In this document: positions 4,322-9,725 of the stretch, in pieces
How positions within the stretch are numbered: the stretch's first letter is position 1
How the letters are laid out: every line of letters starts with the position of its first letter
NCBI GenBank assembly: GCA_003696125.1
Contig: RFHZ01000018.1
Coordinates: 1 to 9,725, forward strand
DNA from: Nitrospinota bacterium
Lineage (GTDB): Bacteria; Tectomicrobia; Entotheonellia; J063
Length of the DNA stretch: 9,725 bases
Reading direction: 5' to 3'
Position numbers and translations under genes: made by a program
The notes under the pieces: generated by a model
Seen by the model: only the letters and a program-made list of their open reading frames with translations
Databases searched by the model: none
What the model was told of the DNA's origin: nothing

Positions 4322-4642
4322 TCAAGAGGGAAGGGAGAGGAAACGACGCGTATGGCCCCATATCGATCCTGCCGTGGCCAGGATGGCAATCACCATGTGG
4401 GCGAACCCGGAGAGGAGTCCGCTGAAGGCTGCCAGCCCGGAAGCGATGACCAGAAGGAGCAGGAGCGCGGCCAGCAGGTCTCTCCCCTCTTTGCCCAGCA
4501 TGTGGGTGAGCAAGGCGATGAGTATCCCCACCAGCGAGATGCCGATATGGGTATTGACATCCAGGAGGCCAGCCATGGTTAAAAAGCCAAAGCCTATGGC
4601 CAGGAGCAATCCTACAACCGAAATACCACTCAAGATTCGCAT
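4322..4642 (-). CDS. Small four-helix membrane protein with paired H-x14-H helices (possible di-heme cytochrome b)
   Basis: I do not recognise the family. The 106-residue protein has four predicted membrane helices at about 5-25, 31-48, 57-76 and 81-98, and almost no soluble part. Its only four histidines lie at the two ends of helix 2 (His32 and His47) and helix 4 (His82 and His97), each pair 15 residues apart. In cytochrome b-type proteins two helices each carrying two histidines 14-15 residues apart bind two stacked hemes, so this protein may be a minimal di-heme electron carrier; this is inference from spacing alone. The ATG at 4642 is preceded by GGAGAGGA at good spacing, unlike the ATG at 4657, so 4642 is chosen. 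It overlaps the end of the RND gene by 13 bases, which implies coupled translation and a link to the pump or to the Ccm genes upstream. Confidence 0.8.
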   Translation of the reverse strand: MRILSGISVVGLLLAIGFGFLTMAGLLDVNTHIGISLVGILIALLTHMLGKEGRDLLAALLLLLVIASGLAAFSGLLSGFAHMVIAILATAGSIWGHTRRFLSLPS

Positions 4643-7600
4643 TTTTGTCCTCTCCATCGCCAGATTCGTTCACGCATCTCTTCCACCAGGCTATACAAGA
4701 TAGGAAGAAAAAAGAGGGTAAACAGCGTCCCTACCGACAGGCCACCCAGCACAACCCGTCCCAGAGGAGCCCATACCTCTGCCCCTTCTCCCCAGCCAAC
4801 AGAGAGGGGAAACAGGGCCAGGACCGTGGTCAGGGTGGTGATCAGGATCGGTCGTAGCCGGGTTCCGCCGGCTTCGATAATCGCTTCCCTGCTCCTCCTC
4901 CCCTGCTGGCGAAGGCGCTGGGCATAATCGATCAGGACGATGCCGTTGTTCACCACGATCCCTGCCAGCAGAATGATACCGATATAGACCGGCACGCTAT
5001 AGCTGGTACCGGTCATCCATAGACTGGCGATGATGCCGATAGAGGCAAAGGGGATGGTGAACATGATCACCAGGGGATGAAGGAGGGATTCGTAGAGGGA
5101 AGCCATGACCATGTATACCAGCAGCAAGGCCAGGGTGAAGGCGAGTACCACATCGCGGCGTGACTGCTGCATCGCCTCCCGTTCCCCGGCCAGCCGGAGG
5201 CTGAGTCCTTGCGGGAGCGGCACCTGGCGCACCCGCTCCTCTATCTCCCGCACCAGGGAGGAGAAGTCCCGACTCCCATCGCTTGCCACCTGGAGTGTAA
5301 CCACGCGCTGTTGGGCCCGTCGTTCGATCGTCATCGGTCCCCGGGCCCGGATGAGGGTGGCGATGTGATGAAGTGGTACCTGTCTGCCGGTCGGTGTGGG
5401 GATTAAGAGCTGCTCCAGATCCTTCCATCCCTCTCTATCCTGCTCCTGCAGCCGGACCAGAACGTCATACTGGTCTCCTCCGTCGCGGTAAGTGGTGGCA
5501 ACGGTGCCTTCCAGAGCGGTCTTTACCGTATTGAGGATATCTGCCATCCGGATCCCCAAGGCGGCCGCCTTGTCTCGCTGGATCTGAACCTGGATTTCTG
5601 GGATCTGGTCCTCGGTGCTGAGCAGGGTGTGTGATACCCCCTCGACCTGTTGCAGCACCTGGCTGAGTCGGTGGGCCAGGGCGGTACTGGCCTCCAGATC
5701 ATACCCCTGGATGTCGATCTCGATCCGCTCGCTACGGCCTCCTCCCCACAGACGGCGGAGATCAGAGGGGCGTTCAAAGATCCGAATCCGGGCTCCAGGA
5801 ATGGCTTTGAGTCTCTGTCGCAACTCTTGCATCAACACCGGAAGACTCTTTTCCCGTTGGGTCCGATCGAGGGCCTTGATAAACATAAACCCGGTATGGG
5901 TGCCACCCCCTCCCCGGCTGGTAACCCCTACCCGGGCAAAGGCGGCTTGAATCTCCGGGGTTTCCTGCACAATGATCCGCTCCATCTGGCGCATCACTCC
6001 ATCGGTGATAGCAAATTTCGTGCCGACCGGCATCTCCAGTCGGCCGTACATCAGCCCTTCATCCACCGCGGGGAGGAGTTCGCTCCCGATCTTCCTGTTC
6101 CCCCAGGAGGCCAGGATCAGGGTACCGGCAGCGACGGCGAGGACCAGGCCGCGATGGCAGAGGACCCGGTCCAGGCTGTGGCGATAAGTAGAGCCGAGCG
6201 CATGCAGCCGCTGGCGAGCCCTTCTCCTCTGCCTCCCCTCCTCTCCCCATGCTCCTGACTTCATCAGTCGGGCCGAAAGCATGGGGACGAGGGTCAGGGC
6301 CACTCCCAGCGAGGTCAGAAGGGAAGCGGTTACGGTCAGGGCCAGCTCGCGAAAGATGACCCCGATCGTCCCCTGCACAAAGATAATGGGGAGGAAGACA
6401 CAGAGGGTGGTCAGGGTGGAGGCAGCGATGGCAACCGTCACCTCCTGCCCTCCCCGTATGGCCGCTTCAACAGCCGGGAGGCCCAGACTGCGGTGCCGGT
6501 AGATGTTCTCCAGGACCACCACCGAGTTGTCGACCAGCATCCCGATGCCAAGAGCAAGGCCGCCGAGCGACATCCAGTTGAGGCTGATATCCCAGAGGTA
6601 GAGCAGGATAAAGGTGGCGATGATCGAGATCGGCATGCTCAGGGCGATGATGCAACTGGTCCGCAGGTTCTGGAGAAACAGGAAGAGGACGAGGAGGGCG
6701 ATCAGTCCCCCCTGGATGGCCGTGTTCCTCACCTGCCGGATCGAGTCCTTGATGAAGCGGGAACGGTCGTAGAGGATATCCAGGGATAACCCGGCTTCCA
6801 GGGTTTGTTGGATCGCTGGCAGACGGGCCCGTACCCGGTCTGCCACCTGCACGGTGTTCCCTCCAGACTGCTTGCGGACAGCCAGAATGACCCCTTCTTC
6901 CCCGTTGATACGTGTCTGGGTCCGCTCGTTTTCGTACCCTTTGACGACCTGTCCCACATCCTGCAGATAGACGGGGACTCCCTTGTGATGGGTCAACACC
7001 ACATGGGCAATGTCTTGAAGGGAGCGGAACTCCCCCAGCGGCCGGACCAGATAATCCAGGGAACCGGCTTCCAGCCGGCCACCGGCCAGGCTCAGGCTCT
7101 CCTGGCGCAGGGCGTCTACCACCTGGAGAAGGGAGAGGTTGACCGCTTCCAGCCGACTCTGATCCAGCCGGACCTGGATCTGGCGTCGTTTCCCTCCCCA
7201 GACATCCACGGCAGCTACCCCTTCCACCTGCTGGAGCAGATAGGCGAGGCGGTCTTCTGCTATCTGCCGGACATCATACCGCTCCCCATCCCCGTGAAAG
7301 CTGAGATACATGATCGGCTGGGAGGAGGTGTCATATTTCCAGATGCGGGGCTCTTCGACTTCGTCGGGGAGAAAGCGCTTGATCGAGGCGATCTTTTCCC
7401 GGACTTCGTTGACCGCTTCGGTCAGGTCTTTGTCCCAGCCGAAATCGATGACCACGGTGGAGTTCTCCTCTTTAGAAACGGAACGGACCTCCTGGACTCC
7501 ATCGATGGTACTCACCGCCTTTTCGATGTATTCGGTAACCAGCTTTTCCACCGTGTCTGGAGCTGCCCCTCTGTATCGGGTGCTGACGGTGACCGAAGGG

Positions 7601-7725
7601 AAGGTCACGTCGGGGAGTTGATCGAGAGGGAGGCGAGAGGCAGAGATCCCTCCCAGCACCAGGATGGCGAGGAAAAACATGGTAATGGTGACCGGTCTCT
7701 GCACCGCAAAACGGGAAAGGCTCAT
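4630..7725 (-). CDS. RND efflux transporter, AcrB/HAE1-type inner-membrane subunit
   Basis: This is the proton-driven inner-membrane pump of a tripartite efflux system, working with the membrane-fusion protein encoded just upstream and an outer-membrane channel not seen here. The 1031-residue length and architecture are complete: TM1 near 10-30, a first large periplasmic loop to about 335, TM2-6 (about 337-485), TM7 near 525-540, a second loop to about 855, and TM8-12 (860-1015). The TM4 motif GMLVDNSVVVLENIYRHR gives Asp399 at the AcrB Asp407 position, with Asn400 replacing Asp408. In TM10 the motif VVNNGIVLIDYA places Asn926 where AcrB has Lys940. This VDN/VNNGIV pattern is that of the HAE1 subgroup common outside Proteobacteria, so it is a drug, lipid or amphiphile exporter more probably than a CusA-type metal pump; the substrate is unknown. 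Its ATG overlaps the stop of the fusion-protein gene as ATGA. Confidence 0.97.
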   Translation of the reverse strand: MSLSRFAVQRPVTITMFFLAILVLGGISASRLPLDQLPDVTFPSVTVSTRYRGAAPDTVEKLVTEYIEKAVSTIDGVQEVRSVSKEENSTVVIDFGWDKDLTEAVNEVREKIASIKRFLPDEVEEPRIWKYDTSSQPIMYLSFHGDGERYDVRQIAEDRLAYLLQQVEGVAAVDVWGGKRRQIQVRLDQSRLEAVNLSLLQVVDALRQESLSLAGGRLEAGSLDYLVRPLGEFRSLQDIAHVVLTHHKGVPVYLQDVGQVVKGYENERTQTRINGEEGVILAVRKQSGGNTVQVADRVRARLPAIQQTLEAGLSLDILYDRSRFIKDSIRQVRNTAIQGGLIALLVLFLFLQNLRTSCIIALSMPISIIATFILLYLWDISLNWMSLGGLALGIGMLVDNSVVVLENIYRHRSLGLPAVEAAIRGGQEVTVAIAASTLTTLCVFLPIIFVQGTIGVIFRELALTVTASLLTSLGVALTLVPMLSARLMKSGAWGEEGRQRRRARQRLHALGSTYRHSLDRVLCHRGLVLAVAAGTLILASWGNRKIGSELLPAVDEGLMYGRLEMPVGTKFAITDGVMRQMERIIVQETPEIQAAFARVGVTSRGGGGTHTGFMFIKALDRTQREKSLPVLMQELRQRLKAIPGARIRIFERPSDLRRLWGGGRSERIEIDIQGYDLEASTALAHRLSQVLQQVEGVSHTLLSTEDQIPEIQVQIQRDKAAALGIRMADILNTVKTALEGTVATTYRDGGDQYDVLVRLQEQDREGWKDLEQLLIPTPTGRQVPLHHIATLIRARGPMTIERRAQQRVVTLQVASDGSRDFSSLVREIEERVRQVPLPQGLSLRLAGEREAMQQSRRDVVLAFTLALLLVYMVMASLYESLLHPLVIMFTIPFASIGIIASLWMTGTSYSVPVYIGIILLAGIVVNNGIVLIDYAQRLRQQGRRSREAIIEAGGTRLRPILITTLTTVLALFPLSVGWGEGAEVWAPLGRVVLGGLSVGTLFTLFFLPILYSLVEEMRERIWRWRGQKCES

Positions 7726-8984
7726 GGTATTCTCACCTGCATGCCGTCTTTTAGCCGTTCCTGCCCCTTGACGATCACCTGTTCTCCCTCTTGCAGGTGG
7801 TCGAGGACCACCACCAGTTCATCGGTCTGGTACCCGGTGCGGATCGTTCGGCTCTCCACTTTCCCGTCATGGTAGACAAAGACCCTGGTCCCCTGTCCGG
7901 CAGGTAGCAAGGCTACGCGAGGGATGAAGAGCACGTCGGGAAAGGTCTCTACAACCAGCTCGACCCGGGCGAACATGCCCGGCTTCAGCCGATGATAGGG
8001 GTTTTCCATGTGGATTTCAACCGGAACGGTTCGGGTCACCGGATCCATGGTCGGCCCTATCCGGAATAACGACCCGGTAAAACGCTCGGCCGGATAGGCA
8101 TCGACCCGGACCTCAGCCTGCTGGCCGGGGTGAAGGAGCTGGAGATGGCGTTCACTCACATGCCCGGCGATTTTGACCCGGTCCAGGTTCATGAGGGTGA
8201 GCAGGGGGGAGGAGGGGGTGGCAAAATCACCAGGGTCGATGTGGCGTTTGCTCACCATGCCATCGATGGGGGCCGTGATGCGGGCATGGCCGAGCCGGGT
8301 TCTGGCCAGCTCCAGTTCGGCTTCCGCTTCCCGGACCTGGGCAAGGGCGGCCTGCCGTTCTTCTGGTCGTGCCCCTTTGCGCAGCAGGGCCAGGGCATCT
8401 CGGGCGATGTTATACTCCGCCACGGCCGCCTCGTATTCCCGTTGCGCCTCTTCTCGATCCTGGTCAGAGAGGAAGTGTTTGGCAAAGAGCTCTTGGGCCC
8501 GCTCGTACACGCGCCGGGCCTTTTTCAGATTCGCTTCTGCTTTGCGCAGCCGATCGCGGGCCTGCGAGAGCTCCTCTGGTCGGGCCCCGGCCAGGAGCTG
8601 GGCGTAACGGGCCTGGTAAAGGGCCAGCCTGGCCTCTGCCTGTCGGACCTGTGCCGCCAGCTCGCGATGCTCCACCAATCCCAGCACCTCTCCCCGCTGT
8701 ACCGTGTCCCCCTCTTCGACCGTCAGCTCTTCGACCACACCGGCGATCTGGGCATGGACCTGCACCACCGATTGGGGGAGCACATCCCCGGTAAAGGAGA
8801 TACGCCGATCGAGGGTCCCTCGCCGTACCGGGGCGACGGCAACGGACAGGGGGGGAGGGGAGCGCATGGTGGCTTTCCCCTGAGCACCAGGATTGGTGGG
8901 GAAGAGGTCAGGGAGGAGGAAGAACCACACCAGCCCGAGGCCCAGGAGGAGTCCCAGTACACCCAGGGTGGAGCGTCTATTCAT
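7722..8984 (-). CDS. RND efflux membrane-fusion protein (periplasmic adaptor, HlyD/AcrA family)
   Basis: The adaptor joins the inner-membrane RND pump to the outer-membrane channel. The 420-residue protein has an N-terminal membrane anchor (about residues 6-24, no lipobox cysteine), a first barrel-sandwich half with QVHAQIAGVVEELTVEEGDTV (75-95), a long alpha-helical coiled-coil hairpin (about 108-232), the second lipoyl half with ARITAPIDGMV (234-244), a beta-barrel domain (about 265-345) and a membrane-proximal domain ending VKGQERLKDGMQVRIP. The hexapeptide GARPEE occurs twice (133-138 and 204-209), each time at the start of a helical stretch of similar build, so the hairpin arms may be an internal duplication. 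The hairpin is much longer than in metal-pump adaptors. Its start overlaps the ccmH stop by eight bases and its stop overlaps the pump's ATG by four, so translation of all three is probably coupled. Confidence 0.96.
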   Translation of the reverse strand: MNRRSTLGVLGLLLGLGLVWFFLLPDLFPTNPGAQGKATMRSPPPLSVAVAPVRRGTLDRRISFTGDVLPQSVVQVHAQIAGVVEELTVEEGDTVQRGEVLGLVEHRELAAQVRQAEARLALYQARYAQLLAGARPEELSQARDRLRKAEANLKKARRVYERAQELFAKHFLSDQDREEAQREYEAAVAEYNIARDALALLRKGARPEERQAALAQVREAEAELELARTRLGHARITAPIDGMVSKRHIDPGDFATPSSPLLTLMNLDRVKIAGHVSERHLQLLHPGQQAEVRVDAYPAERFTGSLFRIGPTMDPVTRTVPVEIHMENPYHRLKPGMFARVELVVETFPDVLFIPRVALLPAGQGTRVFVYHDGKVESRTIRTGYQTDELVVVLDHLQEGEQVIVKGQERLKDGMQVRIP

Positions 8985-9471
8985 ACTCGTCTAGTTCTCG
9001 CCGCAGTTGCTCGACGTACCGGCTTTCTCCCGGCGTGGTGCGGGAAGGAGCCTCTGGAGATGGTGGGGTCGAAGGGCGGAGGTGTTTTCCCGTTTTGGCC
9101 CACTGTCTTACCGTGATCCCGACGACGACACCACCGATAACCAGAAAGAGCGGGGGGAGGACCCAGACCAGGAGGTTGACCCCCTGCGGCTTGGGGCTGA
9201 GGAGGATCCACTCCCCGTATTTCTCGACAAAGTAGGCCTGGATCTGCTCCGGGGTTTCCCCGGCTTCCAGCTTCTCTCGAATCAGGTTCCGCATCTGCTT
9301 GGCCAGCTCTGATGGCGAATCCGCCACCGACAGGTTCTGTCAGACCGGACACCGGAGCTGGGAAGCGATCTGGCGCACCTGTTTCTCCAGGGCAGGGGCG
9401 GTTACCGCCCAGAGTGTTGTTACACTTCCCAGGAGCAGAACTATCAGGAGCAGCGTCCCTCGTATACGCAT
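8977..9471 (-). CDS. ccmH: CcmH cytochrome c maturation thiol reductase, apparent selenoprotein (in-frame TGA at 9340-9342)
   Basis: CcmH reduces the CxxCH heme-binding cysteines of apocytochrome c in the periplasm during System I maturation. Read through the TGA, the product is 164 residues and complete: an N-terminal signal anchor (about 5-22), the active site LRCPV-x-QNLSVADSPSE at 39-55, the helical domain with IREKLEAGETPEQIQAYFV and the conserved YGEWILLSPKP, a second membrane helix (about 98-120), and a charged cytoplasmic tail. Family members have LRCxxCQNxxxADS; here Cys41 is present and residue 44, normally the second Cys, is TGA. Both flanks are in one frame, with no other lesion. 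A SECIS-like stem-loop follows, so the best reading is selenocysteine (CxxU). TGA ends other genes in this window, so a UGA=Trp code is unlikely. The ATG at 9471 has GA/G-rich ribosome-binding sequence upstream. Without recoding, only a GTG-started fragment (8977-9327) lacking the active site would remain. A nonsense mutation or base error is the alternative. Confidence 0.85.
9311..9342 (-). promoter_or_regulatory. SECIS-like stem-loop with the candidate selenocysteine TGA codon
   Basis: On the minus strand the TGA (9342-9340) is followed after 11 bases by GGTGGCG (9328-9322), loop GATT (9321-9318) and CGCCATC (9317-9311): a 7-bp stem with one G.U pair. The loop begins with G at 19 nt after the TGA. 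Bacterial SECIS elements have a short apical loop with G in its first positions at about 16-37 nt after the UGA, and E. coli fdhF has its loop at 19 nt. A lower CTG/CAG pairing could add a stem below a bulge that contains a U. The E. coli-specific GGUCU loop is not present, but SelB recognition differs between phyla. Confidence 0.7.
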
Positions 9472-9521: not shown

Positions 9522-9725
9522 CTATAGCAGTTTTTCGATCTCGCGCCGGATGGTCATGGCGCTGATCTCTCCGATGTTCTTATAGGCAATCCGGCCCTCT
9601 CGGTCAATGAAAAACGTCTCCGGCACACCATACACCCCATAGTCGATGGAGATCTTTCCCTCCCTGTCCAGGCCGATGGGAAAGGTTTTATGGAATTTTT
9701 GCACAAACTCCTGCACCTTGTCTCG
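9522..9725 (-). CDS. ccmG: CcmG/DsbE thioredoxin-like protein, C-terminal 67 residues (gene runs off the window)
   Basis: CcmG is a membrane-anchored periplasmic thioredoxin-fold protein that passes reductant to CcmH or to apocytochrome c. Only the C-terminal third is present, so its WCxxC active site lies outside the window. The visible part is characteristic: FPIGLDREGKISIDYGVYGVPETFFID, with Pro35 of this fragment as the cis-proline of the thioredoxin fold in the family's GVYGVPETF motif, then REGRIAYKNIGEI and a final helix ending IEKLL. The gene ends 50 bases before the ccmH start, the usual ccmG-ccmH order, and the adjacency confirms the identity of ccmH. TlpA/ResA-type proteins share the fold, but the GVYGVPETF motif and the neighbour favour CcmG. 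Confidence 0.92.
   Translation of the reverse strand, partial: RDKVQEFVQKFHKTFPIGLDREGKISIDYGVYGVPETFFIDREGRIAYKNIGEISAMTIRREIEKLL

Follow-up and report, generated by a model that had tools for sequence, protein, structure and literature searches.

A candidate selenoprotein CcmH, with TGA at the second active-site cysteine codon, in an uncultured bacterium

The ccmH gene and its internal TGA

The window analysed here, 9,725 nucleotides long, is the entire contig C449 of a fragmented metagenome bin (MAG; 4.18 Mb in 990 contigs, 94.8% complete, 8% contamination), and the features described in it all lie on the minus strand. Genes for an RND efflux permease (4630..7725, 1031 codons) and an RND efflux periplasmic adaptor (7722..8984) are both intact and end at ordinary TGA stops, and the start of the adaptor gene overlaps the end of ccmH (8977..9471). 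Directly upstream of ccmH, the contig end cuts ccmG (thioredoxin-like CcmG/DsbE), of which the 3' part (9522..9725) is present. The ccmH frame runs from an ATG at 9471 to a TAG stop at 8979-8977 and would encode 164 residues, laid out as a signal/anchor, a redox domain and a C-terminal transmembrane helix. Its only internal stop is a TGA (9340..9342) at codon 44, the second Cys position of the LRCPVC motif; translation and homologue alignment place the first active-site Cys, Cys41, at a TGT codon (9349..9351). With TGA written as U the product reads MRIRG...SQLRCPVUQNLSVADSPSELAKQM...YVEQLRRELDEYE, giving a CxxU motif in which the second position equals the Cys of LRCxxC only if selenocysteine (Sec) is inserted.

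A first-pass annotation, made from the letters alone, had described a single in-frame TGA at this Cys position, flanked by about 43 intact CcmH-like codons upstream and 120 downstream. Translation and alignment confirm the position, and we find 43 and 120 codons with the Pfam CcmH domain (PF03918) spanning the TGA at 113-120 bits (119.8 bits for the read-through, against a cut-off of 25). A genome-wide profile search also found PF03918 at the same locus (E 2e-32, with one TGA inside the match). Moreover, an AlphaFold2 model with C replacing U (mean pLDDT 88.9) finds its best PDB matches in 2KW0 and 2HL7, both solved CcmH domains. The TGA aligns with a conserved Cys of homologues, which is a criterion for selenoproteins, and Cys41 and Cys44 are invariant in 26 of 26 aligned CcmH homologues. 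The annotation had also asked which codon close relatives carry here; the homologues all have Cys at the site and none has TGA, the comparison genomes of the window's class being four others, none of its family. In a separate group of more distant homologues (L022, L023, L020, L021, L024 and L026; e.g. MSPACPG), which takes in both CcmH-bearing genomes of the window's own class, the first active-site Cys is replaced by Ser or Ala and the second is kept.

The TGA might instead be a real nonsense mutation, leaving a ccmH pseudogene or just a 116-residue fragment. A GTG start indeed lies five codons past the TGA, at 9327, and the resulting open reading frame (8977-9327) is what a gene caller would give, as the first-pass annotation anticipated. 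However, this fragment would lack both the signal sequence and the redox motif, and the remaining frame beyond the TGA is intact and coding-like.

A SECIS-type hairpin past the TGA

A stem-loop with a G-starting loop had been noted at +19, and it is real: the SECIS-type hairpin (9311..9328; GGUGGCG-GAUU-CGCCAUC, -10.0 kcal/mol) has a 7-bp stem formed by a 5' arm (9328-9322) and a 3' arm (9317-9311), with the loop GAUU (9321-9318) lying 18 nt past the TGA. The bSECIS model calls for a loop of 3-9 nt, a stem of 4-16 bp, a minimum free energy of -7.5 kcal/mol or lower, a G within the first two loop nucleotides and a spacing of 16-37 nt (PMC13188914). A search for a bacterial SECIS element 3' of the TGA, as the annotation had suggested, thus places the ccmH hairpin within the model on every count (4-nt loop opening with G, 7-bp stem, 18-nt spacing, -10.0 kcal/mol). 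Its loop is without the commoner G-[G/U] start, which counts against the Sec reading. An Rfam scan of the window gave nothing useful.

Within the same genome, hairpins at least as good occur after 1.9% of random codons (n = 12,368), 2.4% of Cys codons (n = 948) and 2 of 74 TGA gene ends, and they arise in 0.42% of synonymous recodings (n = 5,000); such rarity suggests that the hairpin is more than chance. None of 21 Cys-containing CcmH homologues has an equal or better hairpin. Among six other TGA-Sec genes of the genome (see below), SelD, PrdB-like and CYCXC carry hairpins at -9.7 kcal/mol or better, and GrdA, DsbA-like and SelW-like fall outside the simple SECIS model, so that the ccmH hairpin ranks among the organism's stronger ones. 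If the TGA were a nonsense mutation, the hairpin would be a coincidence; likewise, a sequencing or assembly error would have had to strike the catalytic Cys codon just 5' of a hairpin that is rare at other positions.

Selenocysteine machinery, other selenogenes and cytochrome c maturation in the bin

Lack of Sec machinery would have spoken against a selenoprotein, yet selA, selB, tRNA-Sec and selD are all present in the bin. SelA (526 bits) adjoins SelB (386 bits), the tRNA-Sec scores 74 bits and has a UCA anticodon, and selD carries TGA at its own known Sec site. Contamination is unlikely as the source of the window, because its contig is the closest of 58 contigs to the median tetranucleotide profile of the bin.

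To place the ccmH TGA among other interrupted genes, 380 kb of contigs were scanned for stops flanked on both sides by coding-like sequence that stays in frame, a heuristic control rather than a full census. The scan gave 89 candidates, of which 62 were TAA or TAG; by eye, most were gene boundaries or antisense shadows. When 20 candidates were tested against Pfam, each match crossing a stop did so at a TGA in a catalytic Cys/Sec site (CcmH, Rcas_1661-like DsbA, GrdA, SelT/W/H, PrdB/GrdB-like and CYCXC), and none of the tested TAA/TAG candidates was crossed by a conserved domain. The in-frame TGA genes besides ccmH encode GrdA (L100:1311-1937, plus strand), a PrdB/GrdB-like protein (L181:12798-13670, plus), a DsbA-like protein (Rcas_1661-like; L093:713-1372, minus), a SelW-like protein (SelT/W/H; L160:10524-10871, plus), CYCXC (L169:3632-3940, plus) and SelD (L034:3-299, minus). 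NCBIfam names several of the TGA-crossed genes as (seleno)proteins, including GrdA (NF040748, 208 bits) and CYCXC (NF041379, 130 bits against a cut-off of 90); none of its selenoprotein models matched CcmH. Seven selenogenes, ccmH included, in about 9% of the bin suggest a large selenoproteome, and by the evidence of these genes the organism uses selenium in several proteins. Since the tested TAA/TAG candidates show no domain crossing, stop-creating errors look rare in this bin and Sec use looks common.

It is also evident that TGA keeps its ordinary meaning. TGA, TAA and TAG end 74, 72 and 65 of 211 long genes (TGA 35%); TGA thus closes long genes as often as TAA or TAG, and a reassigned genetic code was rejected. 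Any read-through would restore the CcmH frame, whichever amino acid were inserted, through a reassigned code or plain read-through alike, but the interrupting TGAs sit at Cys/Sec sites in a genome with Sec machinery, and insertion of another amino acid is hardly credible.

An error at the TGA, with TGC or TGT as the true codon of an ordinary Cys CcmH, is a more serious alternative, because ccmH lies on a single contig of a 990-contig bin and contig ends in this assembly carry variation or errors. C102 and C184 overlap within selA (L002:3658-3919, L083:1-262) at only 95.8% identity, with conserved residues changed, which points either to differences between strains or to errors near the ends of contigs. 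However, the ccmH TGA is about 380 nt inside its contig, the neighbouring genes are all intact, and no tested TAA/TAG candidate from the 380 kb interrupts a conserved domain. We consider such an error unlikely.

A gap between contigs C597 and C449 probably interrupts the ccm operon, as C597 carries ccmC, ccmE and ccmF together with the 5' portion of ccmG, and C449 begins in the 3' part of ccmG; the join itself is inferred. CcmE is of the His type (HSEEY). In the ccmG of this operon, which reads WASWCYPACWNEAP (L190:5350-5400, near a contig end), three residues rather than two appear to separate the two active-site Cys. Multiheme c-type cytochromes with 12, 8, 5 and 4 CXXCH motifs imply a need for cytochrome c maturation. 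On the contig of the CYCXC selenogene (L169:3841 region) there are also genes for c-type cytochromes with 12, 8 and 4 hemes. A profile search of this genome (MAG 94.8% complete) found no second ccmH. The first-pass annotation had held that Cys in all relatives together with an intact second ccmH would tell against Sec; the relatives do all have Cys, but the second gene is absent. CcmH is missing in some System I* organisms (PMC3601427), which counts in favour of a nonsense mutation; nevertheless, with His-type CcmE and multiheme cytochromes present and no other CcmH in the genome, a nonsense mutation is very unlikely.

These results argue for the candidate selenoprotein CcmH (CxxU) of the first-pass annotation, now with the machinery, six other TGA-Sec genes and a quantified hairpin behind it, though from a single sequence. 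A selenoprotein gene with Sec at residue 44 is the best explanation of ccmH, with a probability of roughly 0.9, and the remaining doubt concerns almost wholly one base in one assembly.

Novelty and a possible role of Sec in apocytochrome c reduction

To explore whether a second Sec-CcmH exists, we scanned 84,980 species genomes, leaving out those very near the window's own, with a motif that demanded a CGN Arg codon and an A-[D/E]-S stretch and that AT-rich or divergent forms could therefore escape; the 17 matches were all chance and none lay in CcmH. Among 386 sampled genomes, 99 bear CcmH and no other has a TGA inside a CcmH above cut-off; similarly, none of the 85 CcmH-bearing genomes among 95 of one phylum contains a TGA in CcmH. 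Family searches over about 480 genomes in all, and a motif scan of viral contigs, likewise returned no second Sec-CcmH. The annotation's remark that CcmH is not known among the commonly listed bacterial selenoproteins agrees with an inventory from 2026 that covers 119 families and subfamilies of prokaryotic selenoproteins and is without CcmH, NrfF or PF03918 (PMC13188914), and a literature search, judged by title and abstract, gave nothing relevant that links CcmH or cytochrome c maturation to selenocysteine or selenoproteins. In the Sargasso Sea metagenomic survey two different sequences were needed for a selenoprotein family and singletons counted as candidates only (PMC1088965); by this two-sequence rule Sec-CcmH is a strong candidate and not an established family. 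It is nevertheless quite likely an undescribed selenoprotein family, in which Sec, on a fold other than that of thioredoxin, would carry out the attacking step of System I apocytochrome c disulfide reduction; the lineage also has a DsbA-like Sec protein.

With the CcmH/CycL/NrfF family (PF03918; 2HL7, 2KW0) the predicted protein shares the LRCPxC motif, the ADS-S region, the YGE-W motif, the C-terminal membrane helix, the predicted fold and the ccmC-E-F-G neighbours; it differs in that the second active-site Cys is a TGA followed by a SECIS-type hairpin. Like the bacterial CxxU selenoproteins (SelW-like, GrdA, AhpD-like, CMD-like and mercuric transport proteins), it would have Sec as the C-terminal member of a CxxC-type motif, and its TGA precedes a short hairpin with G at the loop start, but none of these in the 119-family inventory (PMC13188914) has the CcmH three-helix fold or a role in cytochrome c maturation. 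The Sec-containing TlpA/ResA-like and DsbA/DsbG-like oxidoreductases also perform thiol-disulfide exchange with an active-site Sec; they have the thioredoxin fold and are mostly UxxC, with Sec N-terminal, whereas CcmH does not have a thioredoxin-like fold and the C-terminal residue is its proposed attacker.

It is debated which of the two CcmH cysteines attacks the disulfide of the apocytochrome, and also whether the direct reductant is CcmH or CcmG. Structural studies of CcmH, as reviewed in PMC3884852, show a buried N-terminal Cys and an exposed C-terminal one, the latter being the proposed attacker; the predicted Sec44 would sit at this exposed position. From the observed gene, TGA, hairpin, machinery, selenogenes and ccm context we infer Sec insertion and its chemistry as follows. 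SelB with Sec-tRNA(Sec) would bind the hairpin just 3' of the UGA and insert Sec at residue 44, yielding a periplasmic, membrane-anchored CcmH with the redox motif LRC-P-V-U. The selenolate would take the place of the exposed C-terminal thiol in attacking the CXXCH disulfide of apocytochrome c, and a selenenylsulfide intermediate would form and be resolved by CcmG or Cys41, leaving a reduced apocytochrome ready for heme attachment by CcmF. Selenium thus probably performs the CcmH chemistry in this uncultured bacterium. A natural Cys-to-Sec exchange at the C-terminal position only would point to the C-terminal residue as the catalytic one, and the selenol could serve as a tool with which the attack and its mixed intermediates might be trapped and followed. 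If the Sec reading is true, the list of selenoprotein families reaches cytochrome c maturation, through a TGA-containing gene of the kind that ORF callers miss.
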